Made by a program: the position numbers and the translations under genes. A stretch of DNA of 64,000 nucleotides from Trichocoleus desertorum NBK24 (GTDB lineage: Bacteria; Cyanobacteriota; Cyanobacteriia; FACHB-46): NCBI RefSeq assembly GCF_030409055.1, contig NZ_CP116619.1, forward strand, positions 5,014,924 through 5,078,923, written 5' to 3'. The notes under the pieces are model-generated. The model ran no database searches. It was not told where the DNA came from and saw only the letters and a program-made list of their open reading frames with translations. Shown in pieces: positions 3,008 through 33,144 of the stretch (the first letter of the stretch is position 1; the number at the start of each line of letters is the position of its first letter).

Positions 3008-3313
3008 GCTGACCTCAAAAGTTGCTCCTAAAGCCTATGCTAAGCCAAAAGTTTGGTTGCTTGGGTCTAGATAAAGATTGGCAGGGGAGTAGGAGGGGGC
3101 GATCGTGTCACTTAGTTCTTCACCAGACTTCAGTTAAAAACTTCGGCAATGTTGACCCACTTACTATATGGGCAAACAAGGTGGCCAAGATGCTCTATGT
3201 AGCATGAACTAGGTTTAGGATATTAGGGGCATTCCGTACCTAGCTCTTAATCATTGATGATTCTTTGATAGAGTTGTGATGCGATTAGAGACCTTTTAAT
3301 TAAGCTGATTGTC
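3008..3313. other. Intergenic region before the AIPR gene
   Basis: Base composition shifts to AT-rich over this stretch. I find no RNA gene, terminator or clear promoter. Short open frames here have no recognisable protein character. The only HIP1-like site is a decayed GCGATCGT near 3101-3108. Confidence 0.4.
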
Positions 3314-5038
3314 ATGGCAAATAAGCTTCCTCTACCAAGTTATCTTGAAACTTTTGATTTGCTACAACAACATATACGGGGTCAACTGGAAGGGTTAAGC
3401 ACTACGGAAAAAGGAAAGCGTTTTGCGCGATTTGTTCAGCGCTTAATTCCGCAGGCAGATGCTGGTGCGGGCTTTGAGATGCCAGAGCTAAATAGTAAGC
3501 TTTCAAACGATGGTGGTGTTGACCTAATAGGAAAGGATAGAAAAACTGATAGAACTTTGTACATTCAATCCAAGCTTTATGTGGATCGTGCAGATTCTAT
3601 TGATTCAGTTATAAGTAAGTTTCAAGCATTCAAGGCAAGTGATAAAAGCCAATTAAGTTTGTTTGATACTGATGATACATCCACCCATTTTCTATTAGCT
3701 ACTCTCTCACCTTTGACAGGGATCTTAGATAAGTATAAAAAGCAGCAGTATGCATCAAAAAACTTTTACGAAAGGTGTGTCAATGAAAACAGAATACACT
3801 TTATTGATGGCTATGAAATACTTAATTTACTTAAGAACGCTCATGGGAAGCTGAGTCAAGTTCCTACAAATCTTACAATAAACTTTGAAACTCCTTATAT
3901 TCACAAAGATGACGTGTATATAGGGGTGATTTCCAGCTTTGAACTTAAAGAATTACATAGAAAATTCGGTGATGCTTTATTTTTTGAAAACGTCCGTGAT
4001 TTTTTAGGTGTCCAAACTGGTGTAGAAAAGATGGGTAGAACTACACCAAATCTTGAAATTATAAAAACTATTAAGAATGAGCCTGAAAAGATGCTCTCAA
4101 GGAATAATGGTTTGGTTCTTGGGGCAGAAAAAGTTGAGCAAGGCTTAGAGGAAAATCAGCTCATTTTGAAGAATGGTAGTGTGGTAAATGGTTGCCAAAC
4201 TACTATGTGTTTAGTTGAGTATTCTGAAAAATCAAGCTTTGTGTTGGTCAAGATTGTTCAAACACCTGATGCTTGGGATATTACAAAATCAGCGAACTAT
4301 CAAACCGCAGTACCTGATATTGATTTGGAGCTTGCAAGGTATCTACGCCCCCAGCTAGTAAAGCGAGCAGCAGAGAATTTTGGAGTACAGCTTAAGGATA
4401 TAGAGAGATCAGCATTTCAGCTAATTGATGAGATTTATGATAGAAAGGTTGCTTACTCTGAAACGCGATTACTATATATTGGTCTCTTAAGCCGTACTCC
4501 GAATAATGTTTTTGCATCCAACTATACAGAGTTATTTCAGGACTTAATTATTGGTTTATACAAGAATGGAGTGCAAGAAGAAGAAATATTTGAACTTCTC
4601 TTTCTGCTGCAAGGCATCTCGCAAGAAAGCCTTAATGAATCCAAGGCTATTTTCTCAAATCCATCATATTCTAATTTTTTCGAAAGGCTTTACAAAGAAG
4701 ATTCTCTGTCTTACAGATCATTTCTTAGTATTTTAGCTTTGTGTGGAACTACTAATACTAATATTGTTGAAAGAGAAACAGACATTGCGAAAGAAATAGC
4801 ACGGGTAAAAGGATTTATTGAACGTGCTGGTACGACTCTCAAGAATGATAAAGATAGGTTTAAGCAATTTCATAAGTTGTCAATCAAACTGTGGATGCAA
4901 GATTTATTAGATGATGAGGATGAAGCAAAAGTGCGACGGGATATGTATTTAAGCTCCAAGAAAATGAATTTCAACAATATGTTTAGGAAGCTCTGTATTG
5001 AGGCAGATTTAGGCCAGTCGTTGCAAAGCAGTACTTGA
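3314..5038 (+). CDS. AIPR-family protein with Mrr-like nuclease N-terminus (putative phage resistance)
   Basis: 574 residues. The N-terminal third looks like a PD-(D/E)xK nuclease of the Mrr type: a helix with KGKRFARFVQRL (33-44), then GGVD (Asp70) and YIQSK (Gln85-x-Lys87), the spacing expected for D...QxK catalytic residues. The middle carries the AIPR signature: RNNGLVLGA (about 263-271) and VVNGCQTT (about 289-296). AIPR proteins were named for abortive infection of phage, and family members sit in defence islands, so a DNA-targeting anti-phage role is inferred. The gene is clearly more AT-rich than its neighbours and I saw no GCGATCGC site from about 2550 to 5188, which suggests acquisition. 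No methylase or partner gene accompanies it. The start ATG has only a weak ribosome-binding site. Confidence 0.8.
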   Translation: MANKLPLPSYLETFDLLQQHIRGQLEGLSTTEKGKRFARFVQRLIPQADAGAGFEMPELNSKLSNDGGVDLIGKDRKTDRTLYIQSKLYVDRADSIDSVISKFQAFKASDKSQLSLFDTDDTSTHFLLATLSPLTGILDKYKKQQYASKNFYERCVNENRIHFIDGYEILNLLKNAHGKLSQVPTNLTINFETPYIHKDDVYIGVISSFELKELHRKFGDALFFENVRDFLGVQTGVEKMGRTTPNLEIIKTIKNEPEKMLSRNNGLVLGAEKVEQGLEENQLILKNGSVVNGCQTTMCLVEYSEKSSFVLVKIVQTPDAWDITKSANYQTAVPDIDLELARYLRPQLVKRAAENFGVQLKDIERSAFQLIDEIYDRKVAYSETRLLYIGLLSRTPNNVFASNYTELFQDLIIGLYKNGVQEEEIFELLFLLQGISQESLNESKAIFSNPSYSNFFERLYKEDSLSYRSFLSILALCGTTNTNIVERETDIAKEIARVKGFIERAGTTLKNDKDRFKQFHKLSIKLWMQDLLDDEDEAKVRRDMYLSSKKMNFNNMFRKLCIEADLGQSLQSST

Positions 5039-5153
5039 AAACTAACCGAAGCTGACAACTTCCTTAAGGGCGAGCACTGATAGATTATCTACGTCTCCTG
5101 AGCTTAGCTATTCGCTGTATCTAAGCAGGATTCATCTGAACAAGAATGGTAAG

Positions 5154-5195
5154 GATTGCTCATATCAGTAGCAAGGCCAAGGACATGGCGATCGC
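5154..5195 (-). repeat. Decayed copy of the peroxiredoxin-like gene 3' end (copy 1)
   Basis: These 42 bases match 9018-9059, inside the peroxiredoxin-like gene, at 30 of 42 positions. Read on the minus strand they encode DRHVLGLATDMSNP, against DRGILGFAENMSNP in the intact gene. Stop codons lie close on both sides, so it is a relic or a mobile short repeat rather than a gene. Confidence 0.55.
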
Positions 5196-5279
5196 TTCTA
5201 AATCAGACTCACTTTGCCACACAGGCTTCCTACTTAAAATAGAAACTAGATCCGGTCGGCAAGCTGGGAGACAATCTCA

Positions 5280-5948: not shown

Positions 5949-6024
5949 CCAAAGCATTTATGTCTGTTCAGCGTTTAAGGCTGCTTGAGGCAGTTTATAG
6001 GCAACATTTGCTTGCTAAGGAAGC

Positions 6025-7353
6025 GTGTAAAAATAAGTTGAGCAATTAAGCAGCTTTTCTGGGGCTGATTTGATAGTTCCAATCTCCATGAAACCGTTTG
6101 CGCCGAATCGCAATCGCGTTAAACTCTTCATCCGTTACTTTAATGCCCGTTTTGTATCGCTTTTCATCGAGTTGAGCATGAACTTCTAAGCCTTGCTCTG
6201 TCGTAGTGCTTCCAATCAGGTTGATGATGACTTGCAAACTCGTTAAAGGTCTACCTCGCCAGTTTTGCGTGATATGGCAGAACAGTCGATGCTCAATCTT
6301 GTTCCATTTGCTCGTACCTGGTGGGAAATGGCACAGGTGAACCGTTAAACCCATCTCATCAGCGAACTCTTGGAGTTTCAACTTCCACAAGCGATTGCGG
6401 TAGCCATTGCTGCCCCCACAGTCTGCCGTGATTAATAAATGCTTACTACGCGGATAAAGCAGTTGCCCCATGTCTAACCACCAGTGACGAATGGACTCAA
6501 CGGCAAATTCAGCCGTGTCATGGTCAATGCCGACGCTCACCCAACCCTGGTTCAAAGCCAAGTCATAGATGCCATAGGGAATTGCTTTGCCCAATGTCTT
6601 GTCAGCAAAGTCATGGACATTGACCTCCACAGGCTCTCCCTTTGGTTCCCACTCTCGCCCAGGATGATGGAAATTGCCCACCAGTTCCTTGTTCTTGGTA
6701 TCGATTGAAATCACAGGGCGATGCAACTGTTGAAACTGCTCAACCGTGGTTGCGATGTGCTCAAACTGGGCATCACGGTCGGGATGATCTTTGCCTTCGC
6801 GAGTTTTGCGATTGCTTTGCAAGCTGTAGTCCATTGACTTGAGCAGGGTATAAACGGTCTTAGCGCTGACTTGATGTCCCTGTCTTTGAAGTTCCTGTGC
6901 TAATTTGTTCACACTTTTACAGGTCCATCGCAGTGCCGAAGTCGGGTCTCCTCGAGTCGTCGGTTCAACCAGGTCATCGAGACGCTTGATTAATGTCTCA
7001 TCGCGCTCTTCGACTCGCTTACGTCCTCCTCCTGGTTTACGAATCGAACCTGTGACAATCGTTTCCTCAGTCGCTTCTAGAGTTCTTTGTCCCGATGTAA
7101 TCGTATTGCGGCTCAGTCCTGTTGCCTTTGATAGTGCACTCACACCACCATGCCCCAAACTTCGTGCTTCAATTGCTGCCCAGATGCGTCGTGTTTGCTC
7201 ATTCAAATAAGGAGCAAATGCCTCGTACTTGAAGCGAATTTGTTCAACAACATCCGCTGCGATCATGCTGCTCATAATAACCCTACAGTTCAAGCTTAGT
7301 TGCTCTGTTGAGGTAGGTCATGAAGTCAGGAAAAAGCTCAACTTATTTTTACA
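6025..7353 (-). mobile_element. ISAzo13-family insertion sequence
   Basis: About 1.33 kb bounded by perfect 18-bp inverted repeats: TGTAAAAATAAGTTGAGC at 6026-6043 and its complement at 7336-7353. The trinucleotide AGC flanks both sides (6022-6024 and 7354-7356) and may be the target duplication, with the element then beginning at the G of 6025. One intact transposase gene fills it. It lies between the Uma2 gene and ocp. Confidence 0.85.
6046..7275 (-). CDS. ISAzo13-family transposase
   Basis: About 409 residues, full length. A helix-turn-helix N-terminus (GGVSALSKATGLSRNTI) is followed by a basic linker with GGGRKRVEERD, the conserved helical segment (GDPTSALRWTCKSV, then QGHQVSAKTVYTLL) and a DDE nuclease core: Asp in SIDTKNKELVGNF, Asp in ITADCGGSNGYRN and Glu in WNKIEHRLFCHI. 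I chose the ATG at 7275 (MSSMIAADVV) over an upstream TTG at 7293; the ATG at 7266 is also possible. No frameshift is visible, so the element may be active. The gene ends a few bases inside the left inverted repeat. Confidence 0.9.
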   Translation of the reverse strand: MSSMIAADVVEQIRFKYEAFAPYLNEQTRRIWAAIEARSLGHGGVSALSKATGLSRNTITSGQRTLEATEETIVTGSIRKPGGGRKRVEERDETLIKRLDDLVEPTTRGDPTSALRWTCKSVNKLAQELQRQGHQVSAKTVYTLLKSMDYSLQSNRKTREGKDHPDRDAQFEHIATTVEQFQQLHRPVISIDTKNKELVGNFHHPGREWEPKGEPVEVNVHDFADKTLGKAIPYGIYDLALNQGWVSVGIDHDTAEFAVESIRHWWLDMGQLLYPRSKHLLITADCGGSNGYRNRLWKLKLQEFADEMGLTVHLCHFPPGTSKWNKIEHRLFCHITQNWRGRPLTSLQVIINLIGSTTTEQGLEVHAQLDEKRYKTGIKVTDEEFNAIAIRRKRFHGDWNYQISPRKAA

Positions 7354-7581
7354 AGCTGCCTAAGTTGTGGTTCGAGTGGTGCTGAGTAGGCGAGCCGCAA
7401 ACCTGAGTAAATCCATCAGATGTCGCTTTCGAAAGGTAAGCCACGACTTTGCGTAAAGGTTTATTAAGTTTTGTAAAAATTTGTGTTACTGTTGTAACAG
7501 ATTGCTGAAGCCTTAGCGTGAAAACGCTCTGGAGTGCATCTCTTTGTCAGTTGTAAATCTCATTAAGGTTAGGCCAGTACT
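7354..7581 (+). promoter_or_regulatory. Upstream region of ocp
   Basis: 228 bases between the IS right end and ocp. It contains an inverted repeat GTTAC-TGTT-GTAAC at about 7484-7497, in an AT-rich stretch that could be a promoter or operator. OCP genes are generally light-stress induced, but no specific regulator site can be named. The IS now supplies the sequence immediately upstream. Confidence 0.35.
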
Positions 7582-8541
7582 ATGCCAATTACGATTGACT
7601 CAGCTCGTGGAATTTTTCCTCAAACTCTGTTTGCTGATGCAGTACCAGCTACGATCGCCAGATTCAAACAACTCAGTGCTGAAGACCAACTAGCCTGGAC
7701 TTGGTTCGCTTATCTTGAGATGGGCCAGACCATTACCGTTGCTGCTCCTGGAGCTGCCAGCATGCAGTTTGCAGAAGCAACTCTAGAGCAAATTCGGAAA
7801 ATGACTTTTGCTGAGCAAACGCAAGTCATGTGCGACCTGGCAAACCATGCCGACACCGAAATTTGTCGCACCTATGCTGCTTGGTCTGCAAACATCAAGC
7901 TAGGATTCTGGTACAAGCTTGGGCAATGGATGGATGAGGGAATTGTGGCTCCCATTCCAGCAGGCTATCAACTTTCCGCCAACGCCTCAGCAGTACTGCA
8001 AGCGGTTAGAGAACTAGATCAAGGTCAACAGATTACAGTCTTACGCAATTCTGTAGTTGATATGGGGTTTGACCCAGGTAAGTTGGGCGACTACACCAAA
8101 GTTAGTGAACCTGCTGTTACCCCCAAAGAGATCTCACAGCGAACTCAAGTCACCATTGAAGGGGTTGATAACCCGACTGTGCTGAGCTACATGAACAACT
8201 TGAATGCCAATGACTTTGGCGCTTTGATTGAGTTGTTCGCACCCGACGGTGCCCTTCAGCCTCCTTTTCAGAGACCGATTGTGGGTAGAGATGGCATCCT
8301 GCAATTCTTTAACGAAGAATGCCAAAATCTGAATCTAATCCCAGAGCGAGGCGTTTCTGAACCCGCAGAAGACGGTTACACCCAAGTAAAAGTCACTGGC
8401 AAAGTCCAAACTCCTTGGTTTGGTGCGGCTGTCGGTATGAACATGGCTTGGCGATTCTTGATCAATCCTAAAGGCAAGATTTTCTTTGTCGCAATTGATT
8501 TGTTGGCTTCTCCTAAAGAACTGCTGAACTTGATTCGCTAG
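7582..8541 (+). CDS. ocp: Orange carotenoid protein (OCP)
   Basis: 319 residues, full length. OCP is the soluble ketocarotenoid-binding photoreceptor that, when activated by blue-green light, binds phycobilisomes and dissipates energy as heat. The N-terminal helical domain (about 1-165) has the carotenoid contacts Trp41, Tyr44 and Trp110 and the interdomain-bridge residues Asn104 and Arg155, at the same numbers as in Synechocystis OCP. A linker (about 166-189) is two residues longer. The C-terminal NTF2-like domain carries Tyr203 and Trp290, equivalent to Tyr201 and Trp288 that hydrogen-bond the carotenoid keto group. All key residues are intact and the close match fits the OCP1 type. The fluorescence recovery protein gene follows directly, as is common for OCP1. 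Confidence 0.98.
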   Translation: MPITIDSARGIFPQTLFADAVPATIARFKQLSAEDQLAWTWFAYLEMGQTITVAAPGAASMQFAEATLEQIRKMTFAEQTQVMCDLANHADTEICRTYAAWSANIKLGFWYKLGQWMDEGIVAPIPAGYQLSANASAVLQAVRELDQGQQITVLRNSVVDMGFDPGKLGDYTKVSEPAVTPKEISQRTQVTIEGVDNPTVLSYMNNLNANDFGALIELFAPDGALQPPFQRPIVGRDGILQFFNEECQNLNLIPERGVSEPAEDGYTQVKVTGKVQTPWFGAAVGMNMAWRFLINPKGKIFFVAIDLLASPKELLNLIR

Positions 8542-8575
8542 AGAAGTGGCTCCGTAGATAAACTCTGAACGATTG

Positions 8576-8606
8576 TGAGCGCTCTCATCAAGGGCGCTCA
8601 GTTTTT
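8576..8606 (+). terminator. Hairpin with T-run between ocp and frp
   Basis: A 7-bp stem TGAGCGC / GCGCTCA (8576-8582 with 8594-8600) is followed by G and five Ts (8602-8606). It lies 34 bases after the ocp stop and before the likely frp start. It could terminate or attenuate ocp transcription and so lower frp output. Confidence 0.6.
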
Positions 8607-8637
8607 GTCTTGCCTAGATAGTACAGAAATAGTGCAA

Positions 8638-8958
8638 ATGAGTGACGTTGAATGGTCTCCCGTAGAGAAACAAATAGCTCAGGAAGCTTTTGAGAGAGCC
8701 TACGAACGAGAAATTAATACTTTGATCAAAGAGGTTCGTGAAAGAGCCAGCACGATCACAAAATTGGATGATACGTGGCTATTACATGATTTTTTAAGTG
8801 CAAGAAGACACCAACTGGATGGTAAATATGACTATAAATACTCAGTGCTGATCTTTGTGTTTGCTCAGTTGGTTAAGGAGGGTTGGCTACATCTCAAGGA
8901 GCTGGAGGGGCTGGAAGCAGATAAGCTGACCAAAATAGCAGCTCTTACCCGCATGTGA
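8638..8958 (+). CDS. frp: Fluorescence recovery protein (FRP)
   Basis: 106 residues from the ATG at 8638. FRP speeds conversion of active OCP back to the orange form and its release from the phycobilisome, ending photoprotection. The sequence has the all-helical FRP pattern with WLLHDFLSARRHQLDGKYD; Trp47, His50, Asp51 and Arg57 correspond to Trp50, His53, Asp54 and Arg60 of the Synechocystis protein, and VLIFVFAQLVKEGWL forms the head domain. A GTG at 8575 would add 21 residues, but that extension overlaps the hairpin with T-run at 8576-8606 and looks non-coding. The same long/short start question exists for Synechocystis FRP. Confidence 0.93.
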   Translation: MSDVEWSPVEKQIAQEAFERAYEREINTLIKEVRERASTITKLDDTWLLHDFLSARRHQLDGKYDYKYSVLIFVFAQLVKEGWLHLKELEGLEADKLTKIAALTRM

Positions 8959-11885: not shown

Positions 11886-12233
11886 TCAGCCTAATCCGCC
11901 GCCACGACCAAAACTACCGAATCCCCCTCGCCCTGTGGTTGAAGATCGACCACTGGTGCCAACGCTTTGTCCCTTACTCCCACTCGTAGCGGGAGCTTGC
12001 CGCACAGAACTGCCAGAGCTAGATGTATATCCCGCCGATCCGCCACCTACATAAACTCGGTTCCTGCTGCCTGATGAGTTGTTGCAGTTGGGATTAGCTT
12101 GTTTGACGGCAGGGTCGTTGCAGTCGAGGTTTGTAGTGCTGGGACTGGTGGTGCAAGCTGCTAAGAACGATGCCATCAAGGATGACATCATTAAAAGAGT
12201 AATCAGTTGTAATAAGCTAGGCTTCAGTTTCAT
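11886..12233 (-). CDS. Small Gly/Ser-rich lipoprotein, YgiB-like in context
   Basis: 115 residues. The hydrophobic N-terminus ends in a lipobox (ASFLAAC, Cys27), so the mature protein is lipid-anchored. The remainder has few acidic residues and is Ser/Gly/Arg-rich, ending in TGRGGFGSFGRGGGLG; two more cysteines sit in DCNDP and PNCNN. It is the first gene of a pair with the ATP-grasp protein. In E. coli, ygiB, a low-complexity lipoprotein with an RGGFG-like tail, sits next to ygiC. The parallel is from memory and context and is not proof of homology. Confidence 0.75.
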   Translation of the reverse strand: MKLKPSLLQLITLLMMSSLMASFLAACTTSPSTTNLDCNDPAVKQANPNCNNSSGSRNRVYVGGGSAGYTSSSGSSVRQAPATSGSKGQSVGTSGRSSTTGRGGFGSFGRGGGLG

Positions 12234-12376
12234 GCCAGTGTCCGGTAGGACTCATTGGGGAATAGATACAAGGTCTGTTTGCAAATTTACGGGAATAGGG
12301 AATTCGTAGGATTGCAGGTGTTTCTCTTGGCTAGGGCAGGCGATCGCGTTTCTAAAATTCCCATTACTAAAAAGAA

Positions 12377-13264
12377 ATGACTCCTGAGTTAACCGCAGCG
12401 TTGCAATTTATCGAAAAAATTGAGCGAGCCAATGTAGCCCAGTCTGTCTACGAGATTGCCAACAAACTACGCGGCTACACCAAACCCAGCTACACCACGC
12501 CGATGTGGAGTACAGCTACAGGCTACAAACAGCCCTATGTGGAAGGAGAGTTTAAGGGCAAGCTCAATCAAGAATTGCTGCTCAGTGGTGAGAAAACTGA
12601 CTTTGGGCATTTCATCGCGGCGCTCTCCGATCATGTGAATCAGCCGGGAGTCCGTTGGTCAGATTTGACGAGTTGGACGGCAGATCACACCTCTTGGGCG
12701 GGTGACATTGGTTCCGCGATCGCCACGTTTCATGCACAGGGTAGCCAGCAGAAAATTCCTACAGTACTAGAATCGCTAAACCGCTACGCCTCTGACTCTG
12801 ACTACGCGGCGAATATTGCAGCTTATGTGGTTGGCGTAATGCTGAATTCTGGTAAACAAACTTTAGTTTCTCAAGCGATCGCTCAGTATGATGCTCAGCC
12901 TTATGCCGAGAACGTGAGATGGTTTCTGAGAGAACGGTTTGAGGGAGCGATCGCCAACAATCAACTCAAAAATCCAGCTGAGGTAGAAGCAGAAATTCGA
13001 CGGGCCATCTCGACTTATATTCGCTTGTCACCGGATTCAGGTCTCTTTAAGTCGGTCAAGAATTTGTTGAAGTTAGACCCACAAATACAACGCGAAGATT
13101 TTCAGCATCCGAATGCGGGTGAGTTGTTGCAAGGGTCACTGCACTTTATGACTTATTTAGTCGAGAAATCTGGACTAGAACCCCTGGAGTTCAAACCTTA
13201 TCAATTGCCCAAGGTGCCTTGGTTAGGAGCGGTCAGTTATGAAGTGAAAGTACCGTTTGTTTGA
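12377..13264 (+). CDS. Conserved hypothetical protein
   Basis: 295 residues, soluble, no signal peptide. The most striking part is FGHFIAALSDHVNQPGVRWS, then a Trp-rich SWTADHTSWAGDIGSAIATF (about 75-125), a pattern of D/H/W residues that may form a pocket. The C-terminal half is helical (AVVEAEIRRAIS-like region and LFKSVKNLLKL). I do not recognise the family and assign no function. Start is the ATG at 12377, divergent from the lipoprotein operon. Confidence 0.7.
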   Translation: MTPELTAALQFIEKIERANVAQSVYEIANKLRGYTKPSYTTPMWSTATGYKQPYVEGEFKGKLNQELLLSGEKTDFGHFIAALSDHVNQPGVRWSDLTSWTADHTSWAGDIGSAIATFHAQGSQQKIPTVLESLNRYASDSDYAANIAAYVVGVMLNSGKQTLVSQAIAQYDAQPYAENVRWFLRERFEGAIANNQLKNPAEVEAEIRRAISTYIRLSPDSGLFKSVKNLLKLDPQIQREDFQHPNAGELLQGSLHFMTYLVEKSGLEPLEFKPYQLPKVPWLGAVSYEVKVPFV

Positions 13265-28296: not shown

Positions 28297-29172
28297 ATGA
28301 CTTTAGCTAGTTCTCTTGCAGACTTTTCCTTAGCAGAGCTGTTCCGAATGATTGACCAAGGACGCAAGTCAGGTCGTCTGACCCTTCTCATTACAGGCGA
28401 TGCTCCAACCTCCCAAGCGCCCACTTGTCGCTACATTTGGTTTCGGCAGGGACGAGTTATTGCTGCGGCTGACCGTCTAGATGGTCAAGGTTTAATTTCT
28501 CAAATTACCACAAGAGGGTGGTTGAGCCAGCGAGTAATCGAAAGATTGGGTAATCTTGCTGGAGGAGAAACCCCTTTAGGAATGACCCTAAAAACCCAAG
28601 GAGCGCTACAAGCTGAGCAATTAAATTTGCTTTTTTCGGCTCAGATGCAGCAAATTTGGAGCTTATTTGGGATTCAAACAGGACGGTTTGACCTAGATGG
28701 CAAAGCCTCTTTGCCCAGCACCGAAATGACAGGCTTAAGCCTACCCGCGATGGAAGTAGCCCTGGCAGGTTTGAGAGCCCTTAAGGACTGGGCCACACTC
28801 GCTGAAGCGTTGCCCGATGGTAACTCAGCGATGCAAAGCACAATACCAGGAAAGCCACAATTCCGCCTTAGCTCCTTAGAGTCTCAGCTTTGGGACTTTG
28901 CCAACGGTTCAGTTTCTCTCAGTGCGATCGCCAAGCAGCTCAATCAACCCATTGCCAAAGTGCAACAAGCCGCTTTTCGGCTCATGCTAGCAGGCTTAGT
29001 AGAGGAGATTCCTCTGATCATGTCCAGTTCTAGCGTCAAAGAACCTCCCATACTCCCGGAGCCGATCGAGGAGTTTCCAGAGGAGTCTAAAAAGGTAGAA
29101 ACTCCTGAGAAATCTAAAGTTAGCAACTCTTTTCTGCAAAATTTGGTTGGCTTTTTACGGAGCAAGAGCTAA
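28297..29172 (+). CDS. DUF4388 (PatA N-terminus-like) domain protein
   Basis: 291 residues. The N-terminal domain (about 1-175) is DUF4388: SSLADFSLAELFRMIDQGRK, SGRLTL, YIWFRQGRVIAA and LSQRVIERL. This domain also forms the N-terminus of cyanobacterial PatA-type regulators. The middle is a winged-helix-like region (LESQLWDFANGSVSLSAIAK, with AAFRLMLAGLVEEI, about 190-245) and the tail is acidic. Its stop codon overlaps the GTPase start by one base (TAATG), so the two are translationally coupled. Likely a scaffold or effector of the GTPase; this is inference. Confidence 0.85.
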   Translation: MTLASSLADFSLAELFRMIDQGRKSGRLTLLITGDAPTSQAPTCRYIWFRQGRVIAAADRLDGQGLISQITTRGWLSQRVIERLGNLAGGETPLGMTLKTQGALQAEQLNLLFSAQMQQIWSLFGIQTGRFDLDGKASLPSTEMTGLSLPAMEVALAGLRALKDWATLAEALPDGNSAMQSTIPGKPQFRLSSLESQLWDFANGSVSLSAIAKQLNQPIAKVQQAAFRLMLAGLVEEIPLIMSSSSVKEPPILPEPIEEFPEESKKVETPEKSKVSNSFLQNLVGFLRSKS

Positions 29173-29714
29173 TGGAAATTTTACGAATCGTAATTACAGG
29201 TACAGTTGGAGCTGGAAAAACCACCTTCATTCGAACCATTAGCGAAATTGATGTAGTCGATACAGACCGTCGAGCGACAGACGAAGTAGCTGAGCAAAAA
29301 CGCAACACCACAGTTGCCTTTGACTTTGGCCGTTTGACTTTTGCCCCTGGTCAAGCCATGCATTTGTATGGCACACCTGGGCAATCTCGGTTTGACTTTA
29401 TGTGGGACATGCTCATTGAAAAGGCCCATGCCTACATTCTGTTACTGGATGCCAATCGACCCCAAGACTTTCGCTATGGTCGGCGAATTTTGGCATTTAT
29501 GAATCAGCGAGTAAAAATCCCCATGATTATTGGGCTGACTCACATGGATTGCCCTGGGGCATGGGACCCAGAAAATGTTGCCTTGGCTTTGGGATTACTA
29601 GACCCAGCTTCTCGACCCCCCATTGTCACTGTCAATGCGACTGAAGAAGAGTCTGTGTTTGAAACTCTAATTGCCTTAATTGAGCAATTAATGGGAGCTA
29701 CCACAGCGAAGTAA
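29172..29714 (+). CDS. MglA-like small GTPase
   Basis: 180 residues. The P-loop GTVGAGKT is at 10-17 and TDRRATDEVAEQKRNTTVAFDFG is the switch I region. The G3 motif is GTPGQ (67-71) instead of DxxG, and G4 is THMD (123-126) instead of NKxD. Lack of the DxxG aspartate is typical of bacterial MglA/CvnD-type GTPases, which use a Roadblock partner as regulator. A Roadblock gene follows at 30112. The likely role is a polarity, motility or other spatial switch, by analogy with Myxococcus MglA/MglB. It is coupled to the DUF4388 gene. Confidence 0.9.
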   Translation: MEILRIVITGTVGAGKTTFIRTISEIDVVDTDRRATDEVAEQKRNTTVAFDFGRLTFAPGQAMHLYGTPGQSRFDFMWDMLIEKAHAYILLLDANRPQDFRYGRRILAFMNQRVKIPMIIGLTHMDCPGAWDPENVALALGLLDPASRPPIVTVNATEEESVFETLIALIEQLMGATTAK

Positions 29715-30111
29715 AAAAATAGAGTAGAAATTTGGTTCTGACGATATTTTTGATGATGACAAAAACTAAATTTATTCTCTGCTGATTTTTTGGTTTTTGC
29801 CTGTTATAAAATTTGCTTTCTTGTGAATAATAAGCAAAGAAGAAAACACAGGAATCTAACTAAAATTTATTCTTGTTTTGCTTGTTATAAAGCTGACTTT
29901 TTGTGAATACTAAGCAAAGAAGTAAGCGTAAAGAGTTTAATTGAGAGGCGAATTTAAGAGCTGAATACACACCTTCATTCAGTAGCTACTCTCAGTAAAG
30001 AAGATGGATTGAATAGAAACTAGCTAGATTTATTGCCTAGTTTCTAAGCTAACAACTCTTGATTTCTCCATCTCACTAAATATTCACAACATCCCTATCA
30101 AGGAACAAGCC
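29715..30111. other. Leader of the Roadblock gene with imperfect direct repeats
   Basis: 397 bases separate the GTPase stop from the Roadblock start, unusually long inside a functional cassette. It holds two related segments (29768-29847 and 29863-29927) sharing AAATTTATTCT, TTGTTATAAA or CTGTTATAAA, TTGTGAATA and TAAGCAAAGAAG. It ends with an AAGGA ribosome-binding site at about 30101. A second promoter or a processed leader is likely. Confidence 0.6.
29768..29927 (+). repeat. Imperfect direct repeat pair (two units)
   Basis: The units lie at about 29768-29847 and 29863-29927 and have the same order of blocks: AAATTTATTCT, TGTTATAAA, TTGTGAATA(A/C)TAAGCAAAGAAG. The last block is conserved at 20 of 21 positions. 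They may be duplicated regulator-binding sites or a duplicated leader. Confidence 0.7.
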
Positions 30112-30480
30112 ATGATTGTTGTTTCAGCCCTACAAGATGTTCTCCAAAATTTCGTCAGCGGCACCCCCGATATTCAGGGCGCGGCTTTGGTTAGCCCTGA
30201 TGGTCTAGCTTTAGCTTCTGCCCTGCCCGCAGGTTTTGACGAAGAAAGAACTTCTGCCATGTCGGCAGCCATGCTTTCTCTCGGTGAGCGGATTGGTCAG
30301 GAGTTAGCGCGGGGCACGATTGAGCGGATTTTTGTAGAAGGAGAAAAAGGCTACGGAGTCCTAGTTGGCTGTGGTGCCGACGCCGTACTCCTAGTCTTGG
30401 CTAGTTCTAGCGCCAAGCAAGGCTTGTTGAACTTAGAGATTAAGCGAGCGGTTGCCTCAATCACTCCTATGGTCAGCTAG
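30112..30480 (+). CDS. Roadblock/LC7 domain protein (MglB-like)
   Basis: 122 residues, one Roadblock/LC7 domain and nothing else. Visible signatures are IQGAALVSPDGLALASALP (about 20-40), SAAMLSLGERIGQELARG and GYGVLVGCGADAVLLVLA. In MglB, such domains form homodimers that act as GTPase-activating proteins for MglA. It has AAGGA at a good distance from the ATG. Together with the GTPase two genes upstream it forms a predicted on/off switch. Confidence 0.92.
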   Translation: MIVVSALQDVLQNFVSGTPDIQGAALVSPDGLALASALPAGFDEERTSAMSAAMLSLGERIGQELARGTIERIFVEGEKGYGVLVGCGADAVLLVLASSSAKQGLLNLEIKRAVASITPMVS

Positions 30481-30550
30481 AACCGCTGCTTGAATCAATT
30501 GCACCCAAGTATTTGTCAATTTTCATCCTCAGAGAAAAAAGGAATTACTA

Positions 30551-31018
30551 ATGACTACGTTGCGCGAAGAACTCGGAGATTTCAGCAGTATCGTTTGCTT
30601 GAAATCTATCATTGTTGGCATGGAAGATGCTTTAGGTGAGAAAGCAACTGCTATCTCTTTGATTGCAGCGGGTCGAGCCCGTGGCAAAAAGCTGGCAGCA
30701 GAATTAGGCTTAGTTAACTCAGCCGCGTCTTTAGAAGATGCTGCCTCAAAAATGGCGTACGCCTTGGGAAAAAATGGCACTCGCTTGTTGGTGCTCGACA
30801 AGGTTGAGAGGACTGATAATGTCATCAAGGTTTATACAAAGGAAACTGTTTGCTCTGCGGGTGAACCCCAAGGTTCAGAGCGAAAGTGCACCTTCACCTT
30901 AGGTGCGGTTTGGGGCGCGCTAGAGGCAGTTTTGAGTAAGCGCCTACAAGGCAAGCACACTGGTTCTGTTCTGCGCGGTGACAGCCATGACATTTTTGAA
31001 TTTACTGAATTAGGATAA
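30551..31018 (+). CDS. V4R-like small conserved protein
   Basis: 155 residues. The pattern resembles the V4R (4-vinyl reductase / hydrocarbon-binding) domain: a helical N-terminal half (VGMEDALGEKATAISLIAAG, RARGKKLAAELGL), then YTKETVCSAGEPQGSERKC (three-residue-spaced Cys/Gly-rich), CTFTLGAVWGALEAVL and a final RGDSHDIFEF. V4R domains bind small molecules or metals in signalling proteins. The assignment is moderate. AAGGA precedes the ATG, and the gene closes the cassette before the terminator at 31050. Confidence 0.75.
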   Translation: MTTLREELGDFSSIVCLKSIIVGMEDALGEKATAISLIAAGRARGKKLAAELGLVNSAASLEDAASKMAYALGKNGTRLLVLDKVERTDNVIKVYTKETVCSAGEPQGSERKCTFTLGAVWGALEAVLSKRLQGKHTGSVLRGDSHDIFEFTELG

Positions 31019-31049
31019 GCCTCAAAGCAGAGAGGACTCTTGAATTAAG

Positions 31050-31102
31050 AATGAGCAGTGCCATGAATTAAGGTTCAATTGCTACGGCACTGCTCATTTT
31101 TT
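31050..31102 (+). terminator. Strong intrinsic terminator closing the GTPase cassette
   Basis: AATGAGCAGTGCC (31050-31062) pairs perfectly with GGCACTGCTCATT (31086-31098), followed by a T-run to 31102. The loop is 23 bases. Confidence 0.9.
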
Positions 31103-31140
31103 ACATGCTACGTGTGTTTTAAACCTTCAGGGATGATCAG

Positions 31141-32166
31141 ATGATGAGTAGGAGTGGGCAGGAAAGTATTCAAACTGCGGCTGAATTGTTGGAGCAATAT
31201 AGCTCAGGTAGAAGGGACTTTTACAAAGCAGAGCTAAGCCAAGCAAGTTTGATTGAAGCTGTGCTCTGTGAAGCCGACCTTTCGGAATCTAATTTGACTG
31301 AATCAAACTTAATTTTAGCTAATCTCTCTCACGCTAATTTAACGGGTACAATTTTAGTCCGAGCCAACTTGAATGGGGCAGAACTAATTAATGCTAACCT
31401 CAGTCAATCTAATCAAGTTCGAGTTGGTTTGATTGGAGCAAACTTAAGTGGAGCAAACTTAAGTGGAGCAAACTTAAGTGGAGCAAACTTAAGTGGAGCA
31501 AACTTAAGTGGAGCAAACTTAAGTGGAGCAAACTTAAGTGGAGCAAACTTAAGTGGAGCAAACTTAAGTGGAGCAAACTTGAATGGGGCGGCTTTCCAGA
31601 AGGCGCTTTATAGCCTTGTGACGTCTTTTCCAGAAGATTTTAGCCTAGAGCATGCAGGAGCCTATCTTCTCAAGCCTGACATCTTCCTACAAGATGTAGA
31701 TTTAAGCCAAGCTAACTTGGACTGGGTAGATATGAACTCAGCTTGTTTGGAGAAAGCTACTTTGGCGGAAGCTACGTTTCGGCAAGCAAATTTGAGCCAA
31801 GCTAATTTAAATGGGGCTAATCTGAATCGGGCTAATTTAACGGCAGCAAATCTCGGTCAGGCTAATTTAGCTGAAGCAGATTTAACCGCAGCCACTTTAA
31901 ATGATGTTAATTTAGGACAGGCAAATCTGGCTCATGCGCTTCTCAACCAAGCTATTTTAGTGAATGCAAATTTAAGCGAAGCGAACCTAGAATCGGCTAA
32001 TTTGATGGGCGCAAATTTAAGTGGAGCAGATTTGGGTAACGCTGAACTCTCTAACGTAAATCTGCAAGGTGCTATTTACGATCAAGGCAGTGATTTTGTT
32101 GCGGGAACTTGCTTTCCTAAAGGCTTCGATCCTGAGCAGGCGGGCGCTTTTCTACGAAGTTTCTAG
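31141..32166 (+). CDS. Pentapeptide-repeat protein with perfect tandem core
   Basis: 341 residues. It is largely A(N/D)LxX pentapeptides that fold as a right-handed quadrilateral beta-helix. The N-terminal array (about 35-150) includes nine identical ANLSG units; then a non-repeat insert (about 150-185, FPEDFSLEHAGAYLLKPD), and a second, more diverse array (about 185-320). A matching sequence FPKGFDPEQAGAFL closes the protein. Targets of most such proteins in cyanobacteria are unknown. The start is ATG at 31141 or the next codon at 31144. The gene lies after the terminator, so it has its own promoter. Confidence 0.93.
   Translation: MMSRSGQESIQTAAELLEQYSSGRRDFYKAELSQASLIEAVLCEADLSESNLTESNLILANLSHANLTGTILVRANLNGAELINANLSQSNQVRVGLIGANLSGANLSGANLSGANLSGANLSGANLSGANLSGANLSGANLSGANLNGAAFQKALYSLVTSFPEDFSLEHAGAYLLKPDIFLQDVDLSQANLDWVDMNSACLEKATLAEATFRQANLSQANLNGANLNRANLTAANLGQANLAEADLTAATLNDVNLGQANLAHALLNQAILVNANLSEANLESANLMGANLSGADLGNAELSNVNLQGAIYDQGSDFVAGTCFPKGFDPEQAGAFLRSF
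31441..31575 (+). repeat. 15-bp minisatellite, nine identical units
   Basis: The unit AACTTAAGTGGAGCA is repeated nine times with no mismatch, encoding NLSGA pentapeptides. Neighbouring pentapeptides encoded by other codons (for example AATTTAAATGGGGCT) show that the identity reflects recent expansion at DNA level and is not required by protein constraint. Confidence 0.97.
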
Positions 32167-32193
32167 TAAAAATCTTTATTGTTTAATATAAAC

Positions 32194-33144
32194 CTAGGGT
32201 TGCGTATTTCTGATGTTGGCGCGGGCATTACGTCGTAACATCTCAGGCTTGATTCGTCGCAGAGCAGAGGCTGGAAAGCGACGATCGCAGTCTTCATCAG
32301 AAATTTCTGCCAGTTCGCTTAGTTTAGGTGCGACGTTCCAAGGATAAGGTTGGAATTCAGTAGCATCTGTAGCTTGAGCAAAGCGTTGATTCCAAGGGCA
32401 GACATCTTGGCAAATATCACAACCTGCGACCCACCCCTGCATTTTAGTCGCGATCGCTTCTGGGAGGGTTTCTGCTCGGTTCTCAATTGTATGGTAGGCG
32501 ATGCAACGGTTGGCATCCACCACAAACGGTTGGGCGATCGCTCCGGTAGGGCAAGCTTCGATGCAACGGGTGCAGGTGCCGCAATGCTCGGTGTGTGGGC
32601 GATCGGGTTCTAAAGCTAAGTTGGTTAAGACTTCTCCCAGAAAAACCCAGGAACCGTACTCCCGCGTAATCACGTTGCTATTTTTAGCAATCCAACCTAA
32701 GCCTGCTTTTTGTGCCCATACTTTGTCTTGGACTGGGCCAGTGTCAGCGTAGTAACGAGCTTGAATACCTTCTTCCTGAGCTTGCAACCAGTTAGCAAAG
32801 GCTTTGAGCTTTTTGTGTAATACGCGATGGTAATCCCGTCCCCAACCATAACGAGAGATTTTGGCATATTCTTTGCCTTCCGGTCGCTGGTCAGCAGTGT
32901 AATAGTTGAGCGCCACACAGATGACTGATTGCACTTCTGGCATAATCAGCCGCACATTTTGGCGCTTGGAATTGTCCATCCAAGCCATGTCTGCTTGATA
33001 ACCTGAGTGCAGCCAGGTCTGTAGTTTCTGCACTTCAGAACTGTCGGCATCGAGATCGGCTGCGGCAATTCCAACTTTCTGAAAGCCTAATTCCAAAGCT
33101 TTTTGCTTGATGCGATCGCGATCGATATTTGGGATTGCAGTCAT
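32194..33144 (-). CDS. queG: Epoxyqueuosine reductase
   Basis: 316 residues. QueG performs the last step in queuosine tRNA modification, reducing epoxyqueuosine to queuosine with a cobalamin cofactor and two 4Fe-4S clusters. The N-terminal DUF1730-like part has ISRYGWGRDYHRVLHKKL and ADTGPVQDKVWAQKAGLGWI (with the catalytic Asp in ADTGP). The clusters are bound by CGTCTRCIEACP and CDICQDVCP. The C-terminal region ends at a short helical tail (RRNARANIRNTQP); the HEAT-like repeats of longer homologues are not present. The start is the ATG at 33144. Confidence 0.95.
   Translation of the reverse strand: MTAIPNIDRDRIKQKALELGFQKVGIAAADLDADSSEVQKLQTWLHSGYQADMAWMDNSKRQNVRLIMPEVQSVICVALNYYTADQRPEGKEYAKISRYGWGRDYHRVLHKKLKAFANWLQAQEEGIQARYYADTGPVQDKVWAQKAGLGWIAKNSNVITREYGSWVFLGEVLTNLALEPDRPHTEHCGTCTRCIEACPTGAIAQPFVVDANRCIAYHTIENRAETLPEAIATKMQGWVAGCDICQDVCPWNQRFAQATDATEFQPYPWNVAPKLSELAEISDEDCDRRFPASALRRIKPEMLRRNARANIRNTQP

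Follow-up and report, generated by a model that had tools for sequence, protein, structure and literature searches.

The window analysed here is a stretch of 64,000 nucleotides from Trichocoleus desertorum NBK24 (contig NZ_CP116619.1). At positions 3314..5038 of its forward strand lies an intact open reading frame encoding a single-gene protein of the AIPR family, 574 residues long, assigned from Pfam, PADLOC and PHROG matches and from conservation among homologues. The motifs reported there by a first-pass annotation (D70, Q85-x-K87, RNNG and VVNGCQTT) are all present. Three regions succeed each other on the same strand: a nuclease domain of Mrr-type PD-(D/E)xK character (residues 12-182, 3347..3859), an AIPR core with a predicted ParB/Srx fold (residues 185-345, 3866..4348) and a helical C-terminal region (residues 380-574, 4451..5035) delimited by the secondary structure of the full-length model. 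The nearest neighbours encode an alpha/beta hydrolase, a Uma2 protein and an ISAzo13 transposase, in agreement with the earlier remark that no modification partner adjoins the gene: neither the list of open reading frames nor Pfam reveals an adjacent methylase, and the gene lacks the nearby cognate methylase of a restriction-modification system. The surrounding genes do not form a defence island. Uma2 was considered as a partner and rejected, as one congeneric genome (G002) carries Uma2 without AIPR and no Uma2 gene adjoins AIPR in the relatives. The ISAzo13-family transposase (6046-7293, reverse strand, within 6020-7360) belongs to a clean IS insertion adjoining the AIPR slot; it is missing from G002, in which a 4-base overlap joins the two flanks, and its inverted ends contain aataagttgagc. 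Further on, an orange carotenoid protein gene directly followed by a fluorescence recovery protein gene (7582-8958) is conserved in both congeners examined.

When the flanks of the AIPR gene were compared by blastn with these two congeneric genomes, similarity stopped near 3105 and restarted near 5227, delimiting a segment (3106..5226, unstranded) that both congeners lack. Both retain the flanking genes, the alpha/beta hydrolase and, across the slot, the orange carotenoid protein. In G002 (locus L013) the slot contains a gene that Pfam identifies as Imm11-like (12224-12793) and a broken Uma2; in G001 (locus L014, 6416-7952) Pfam recognises genes for an S24 peptidase and a HEAT-repeat protein. 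Because the flanks are conserved while the content between them differs, the AIPR gene is a strain-specific insert among the three genomes compared, in a spot that takes different genes, and these replacements suggest an insertion hotspot adjoining the carotenoid protein gene. A search of the insertion borders for repeats, tRNA and RNA families returned no mark of a mobile element.

The composition of the gene agrees with its acquisition, as the first-pass annotation had proposed. Its GC content is 0.364, compared to 0.494 +/- 0.036 for the 42 open reading frames of the window, its GC3 is 0.303 compared to 0.480 +/- 0.060, and none of the 42 exceeds it in codon distance (z 8.7), making it the most compositionally foreign of them. 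The same annotation had placed it in an AT-rich patch devoid of HIP1 sites. Both descriptions hold, and no HIP1 site was found by a window scan between 2549 and 5187 although the window has 100 of them (0.7 expected), but the gap itself is a weak sign of acquisition and we give it little weight, because longer gaps of 3,518 and 3,103 bp occur elsewhere in the window and 1.45 gaps of this length are expected for 100 sites placed at random. The longest HIP1-free part of the window (28932-32449) contains another open reading frame of low GC3 (31141-32163).

The protein matches Pfam AIPR (PF10592) at residues 223-353 with an E-value of 1.2e-23, and its whole-protein score of 84.7 bits lies well above the 25-bit gathering cut-off. 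It also matches PADLOC AbiU (9.9e-22), with a weak PADLOC match to MzaE, and the PHROG family 'Abi alpha-like abortive infection mechanism' (7.5e-20), so that the assignment to a defence-type family made in the first-pass annotation finds support in three collections. The AbiU match spans only the middle of the profile, positions 125-355 of 537 (43%), whereas a canonical cyanobacterial AIPR protein (L023) covers it nearly fully (9-530), and a protein of the same clade as ours (L002) has no AbiU match at 0.001. With the AIPR/AbiU proteins it nevertheless shares a single-gene AIPR core bearing NNG and NGxQT and the succession of nuclease, core and helical tail, while the five-member clade to which it belongs has a signature of its own, (S/A/E)RNNG, NGCQTTM and W(D/E)(I/V)..xANxQ. 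The AIPR core also yields a match to MzaE of the MZA anti-phage system, but at 30 bits (30.1) this is far from the 1050-bit NCBIfam equivalog cut-off; moreover, MzaE sits in a multi-gene operon whereas the window gene stands alone with no mza-type genes beside it, and the MzaE examined did not display the DxGxD...QxK motif. A literature search on MzaE returned unrelated matches only, and a PDB search by sequence with the window protein gave no match. Among named defence families AbiU comes nearest, and the gene, whose architecture is ordinary and whose family is known, is probably a defence gene.

We examined the N-terminal domain by near-threshold Pfam matches, AlphaFold2 and VIA-align. At residues 34-121, Mrr_cat_2 (3.2e-4, 21 bits) and Mrr_cat (0.0015, 19.1 bits) score just below their cut-offs of 22 and 21 bits, and we therefore call the domain Mrr-type by fold and motif and not as a member of the Pfam Mrr_cat families. 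The catalytic residues E32 (3407-3409), D70 (3521-3523), Q85 (3566-3568) and K87 (3572-3574), all on the forward strand, belong to a set of positions (E32, D66-x-G-x-D70, Q85-x-K87, R263-N-N-G266 and N292-G-C-Q-T-T-M298) that are invariant in four homologues sharing 34-50% identity with the query. A full-length AlphaFold2 model built on seven sequences reached a mean pLDDT of 73.7, was mostly good at residues 10-110 and 120-180, and displayed an alpha-beta-beta-alpha-beta layout in the nuclease domain. VIA-align placed residues 12-182 best on the catalytic domain of MspJI (Z 9.4, 135 aa, 3.2 A), followed by Avs4, N.BspD6I, SduA, FokI and Card1, which are restriction-type nucleases or nucleases of the same fold. 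Because a Foldseek comparison of the full-length model with the PDB gave no significant match, the assignment relies on the consistent class of the VIA-align matches and on the conserved catalytic residues; the nuclease fold suspected at the N-terminus was thus recovered.

The resemblance to MspJI and Mrr-type nucleases, with which the window protein, itself bearing a QxK motif, shares the PD-(D/E)xK fold, raises the main rival to a nuclease released by an infection cue, namely a type IV-like restriction enzyme that would cut only DNA bearing a phage-type base modification absent from the host and would not need a methylase. MspJI is a modification-dependent enzyme, the gene is alone with no methylase nearby, and GmrSD, in which a nuclease is combined with a ParB-like domain, targets modified DNA (PMC4619093). 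Against this, Pfam finds no known base-modification reader domain in the window protein, and the recognition domain of MspJI itself is not shared, the AIPR core being found instead. We regard type IV-like restriction as a rather unlikely explanation.

The core was delimited from its own model, from PDB matches and from invariant columns. It carries, within 3866..4348, the motifs N226-x-R228, R263NNG266, S289, NGCQT (residues 292-296) and N328-x-Q330, and the N-x-R, NNG, NGxQT and N-x-Q elements, those expected of PF10592, are invariant in 46 aligned cores. Folded alone from these 46 sequences, residues 183-363 gave a pLDDT of 84 and a pTM of 0.76. Foldseek on this model returned E-values of at least 0.09 throughout, with sulfiredoxin and ParB among the top six. 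With VIA-align, 18 of the 19 PDB entries listed were ParB, Noc, KorB, PadC or sulfiredoxin, and the ten listed entries with Z >= 5 were without exception ParB/Srx-fold proteins; the best match, PadC (99 aa, 3.5 A), has a Z of 6.3, a modest value obtained on a predicted model and within the range (Z < 8) that may reflect a common arrangement. We take the ParB/Srx match seriously despite this low Z because the list of matches is so pure. The order of N226-x-R228, NGxQT and N328-x-Q330 is also that of ParB boxes I, II and III, and, where the alignments with 7bm8 and 6sdk end, N328 and Q330 presumably fall near the EN-x-Q of box III, provided that these alignments are gap-free. The arginine of the box II GxxR is missing: NGxQT stands in its place, with a threonine throughout the 46 aligned cores. 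In ParB-fold proteins, loss of this arginine abolishes nucleotide binding (PMC12704722). Profile comparison of the core with ParB, DndB and GmrSD_N detected no similarity (hhalign probability <= 0.24%). With the box II arginine missing and no such profile similarity, a nucleotide switch in the AIPR core is unproven.

GmrSD and SspE carry an HNH-type nuclease. The window protein would share with them and with DndB a working principle, a ParB-type fold beside a nuclease, although no profile similarity links its core to DndB or GmrSD_N. We hold the chances to be about evenly balanced that this core, which recurs in a large group of abortive-infection proteins whose mechanism lacks an explanation, represents a ligand-binding switch of divergent ParB/Srx fold which has lost the box II arginine and is wired directly to an Mrr-type nuclease; AIPR/AbiU would then stand beside GmrSD and SspE as their PD-(D/E)xK counterpart. 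DndB has been classed with ParB (PMC10853773), one older paper puts its N-terminus into the AIPR family, and we found no statement on the ParB/Srx nature of the AIPR core in the literature searched. ParB-fold cores have many roles outside defence, DndB being described as a transcriptional repressor (PMC12704722), and the gene might thus encode a regulator that binds nucleotides or DNA and whose nuclease fold has been repurposed. We consider this highly improbable in view of the intact nuclease residues, the sporadic distribution, the carriage by phages and the distant relatives found in defence operons.

To compare their layout, we aligned cyanobacterial AIPR proteins with those of 72 viral contigs retrieved by means of the core. 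In most of the proteins collected, DxG(I/V)D...QxK precedes NGxQT by about 240 residues. The combination of nuclease and AIPR core, presented as special in the first-pass annotation, is the usual layout of the AIPR proteins aligned, and the notion of a particular fusion was abandoned. The PD-(D/E)xK N-terminus is at odds with a 2012 paper in which a HEPN RNase is assigned to the N-terminus of AIPR proteins (PMC3506569), at least as read from the sequences collected here. Among 68 proteins carried by phages whose N-terminus could be read, 38 have an intact nuclease motif, and eight others that we inspected have a worn version, for instance DKKxD...QxY (L090, L098, L104, L115, L118, L120 and L122), a group that may possibly be catalytically dead or have moved its lysine. 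Nor does a solitary position set the gene apart, contrary to the first-pass annotation: most of the cyanobacterial AIPR genes examined adjoin ordinary or metabolic genes, methylases having been sought by motif only. Of about 16 loci inspected in cyanobacteria, 5 have, as a raw count, a toxin-antitoxin type gene directly beside AIPR (HEPN/MNT, L057 12043-12779; MazF-like, L058 9682-10026; PIN, L062 9899-10626 and L064 7579-8288; DUF433/DUF5615, L065 6665-7352). Distant AIPR relatives occur in Mza and in methylase/helicase type operons. As for composition, the AIPR gene has a lower GC content than its flanks in 67 of 70 viral loci (L078-L147) and is the open reading frame of lowest GC in 28 of 40 non-redundant ones, with a mean difference of -0.116.

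The subfamily itself is very rare: among 386 genomes of the phylum, it was found in the query genome and in one more (39% identity). The alphaproteobacterium Siccirubricoccus sp. G192 has a frameshifted relative (L005, 35% identity) between hslV and hisB, and two viral contigs carry relatives of 50% and 36% identity, while a scan of viral sequences with A5 gave 600 pattern matches and no relative. In each close relative the GC content of the AIPR gene falls short of that of its flanks by 11 to 27 points. The homologues do not occupy fixed housekeeping positions, yet the clustering beside defence genes that the first-pass annotation would have predicted is not clear either. Two of the four close relatives thus reside in phage contigs, one (L004) lying alone between a gene that weakly matches a central tail fibre and a large one that matches tail assembly, the other (L006) flanked by a toxin/repressor pair on one side and by tail fibre genes on the opposite side. 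This location and the presence of AIPR-core relatives in 72 viral contigs would fit an accessory gene, carried mainly by phages, that shields the infected cell from rival phages and of which the cyanobacterial copy would be a stray. Other relatives are chromosomal with no phage genes nearby (L005, L002/L057), and a deposited phage collection contained no match to the window protein; we judge such a phage-on-phage weapon unlikely, though compatible with an anti-phage effector. The rarity of the subfamily could also denote an acquired gene that is degenerate or silent and on its way out, as could the promoter-like sites at the AIPR gene, no commoner than in shuffled sequence, and the frameshift of L005 in a run of A (at about 8260-8270, just past the QxK motif), which may be a pseudogene mutation, a sequencing error or slippage. 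The window gene has a full-length open frame in which every catalytic and core residue is kept, and we deem its degeneration very unlikely.

We lean towards the reading that the strain has gained a one-protein anti-phage effector of AIPR/AbiU type, in which an Mrr-type nuclease is gated by a ParB/Srx-fold core. The PD-(D/E)xK domain, whose fold and residues, like the family of the protein and the recent gain of the gene, are shown in silico, would cut nucleic acid, presumably of the phage or of the host. Since such a nuclease would be dangerous at rest and has no modification partner, a gate is needed and the core is its natural candidate: the predicted ParB/Srx-fold module would keep the nuclease off in a healthy cell, until an infection cue, probably a nucleotide or a modified-DNA ligand, releases it. 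The host would be safe because the cue is absent and not through marked DNA; that self-protection follows a principle other than modification, as the first-pass annotation had argued, is a reasonable view, and one routinely assumed for any Abi or type IV protein that stands alone. To judge from the family annotation, infection would end with the phage DNA lost or the cell dying abortively. AIPR proteins occur commonly in defence operons and in phages, and we found no published account of their action. If the proposed mechanism is true, cutting can be probed at D70 and K87, and sensing at N226/R228, N292-T296 and N328/Q330. What deserves further attention is that the AIPR core may be of ParB/Srx nature, which would tie it to a known nucleotide-binding fold.
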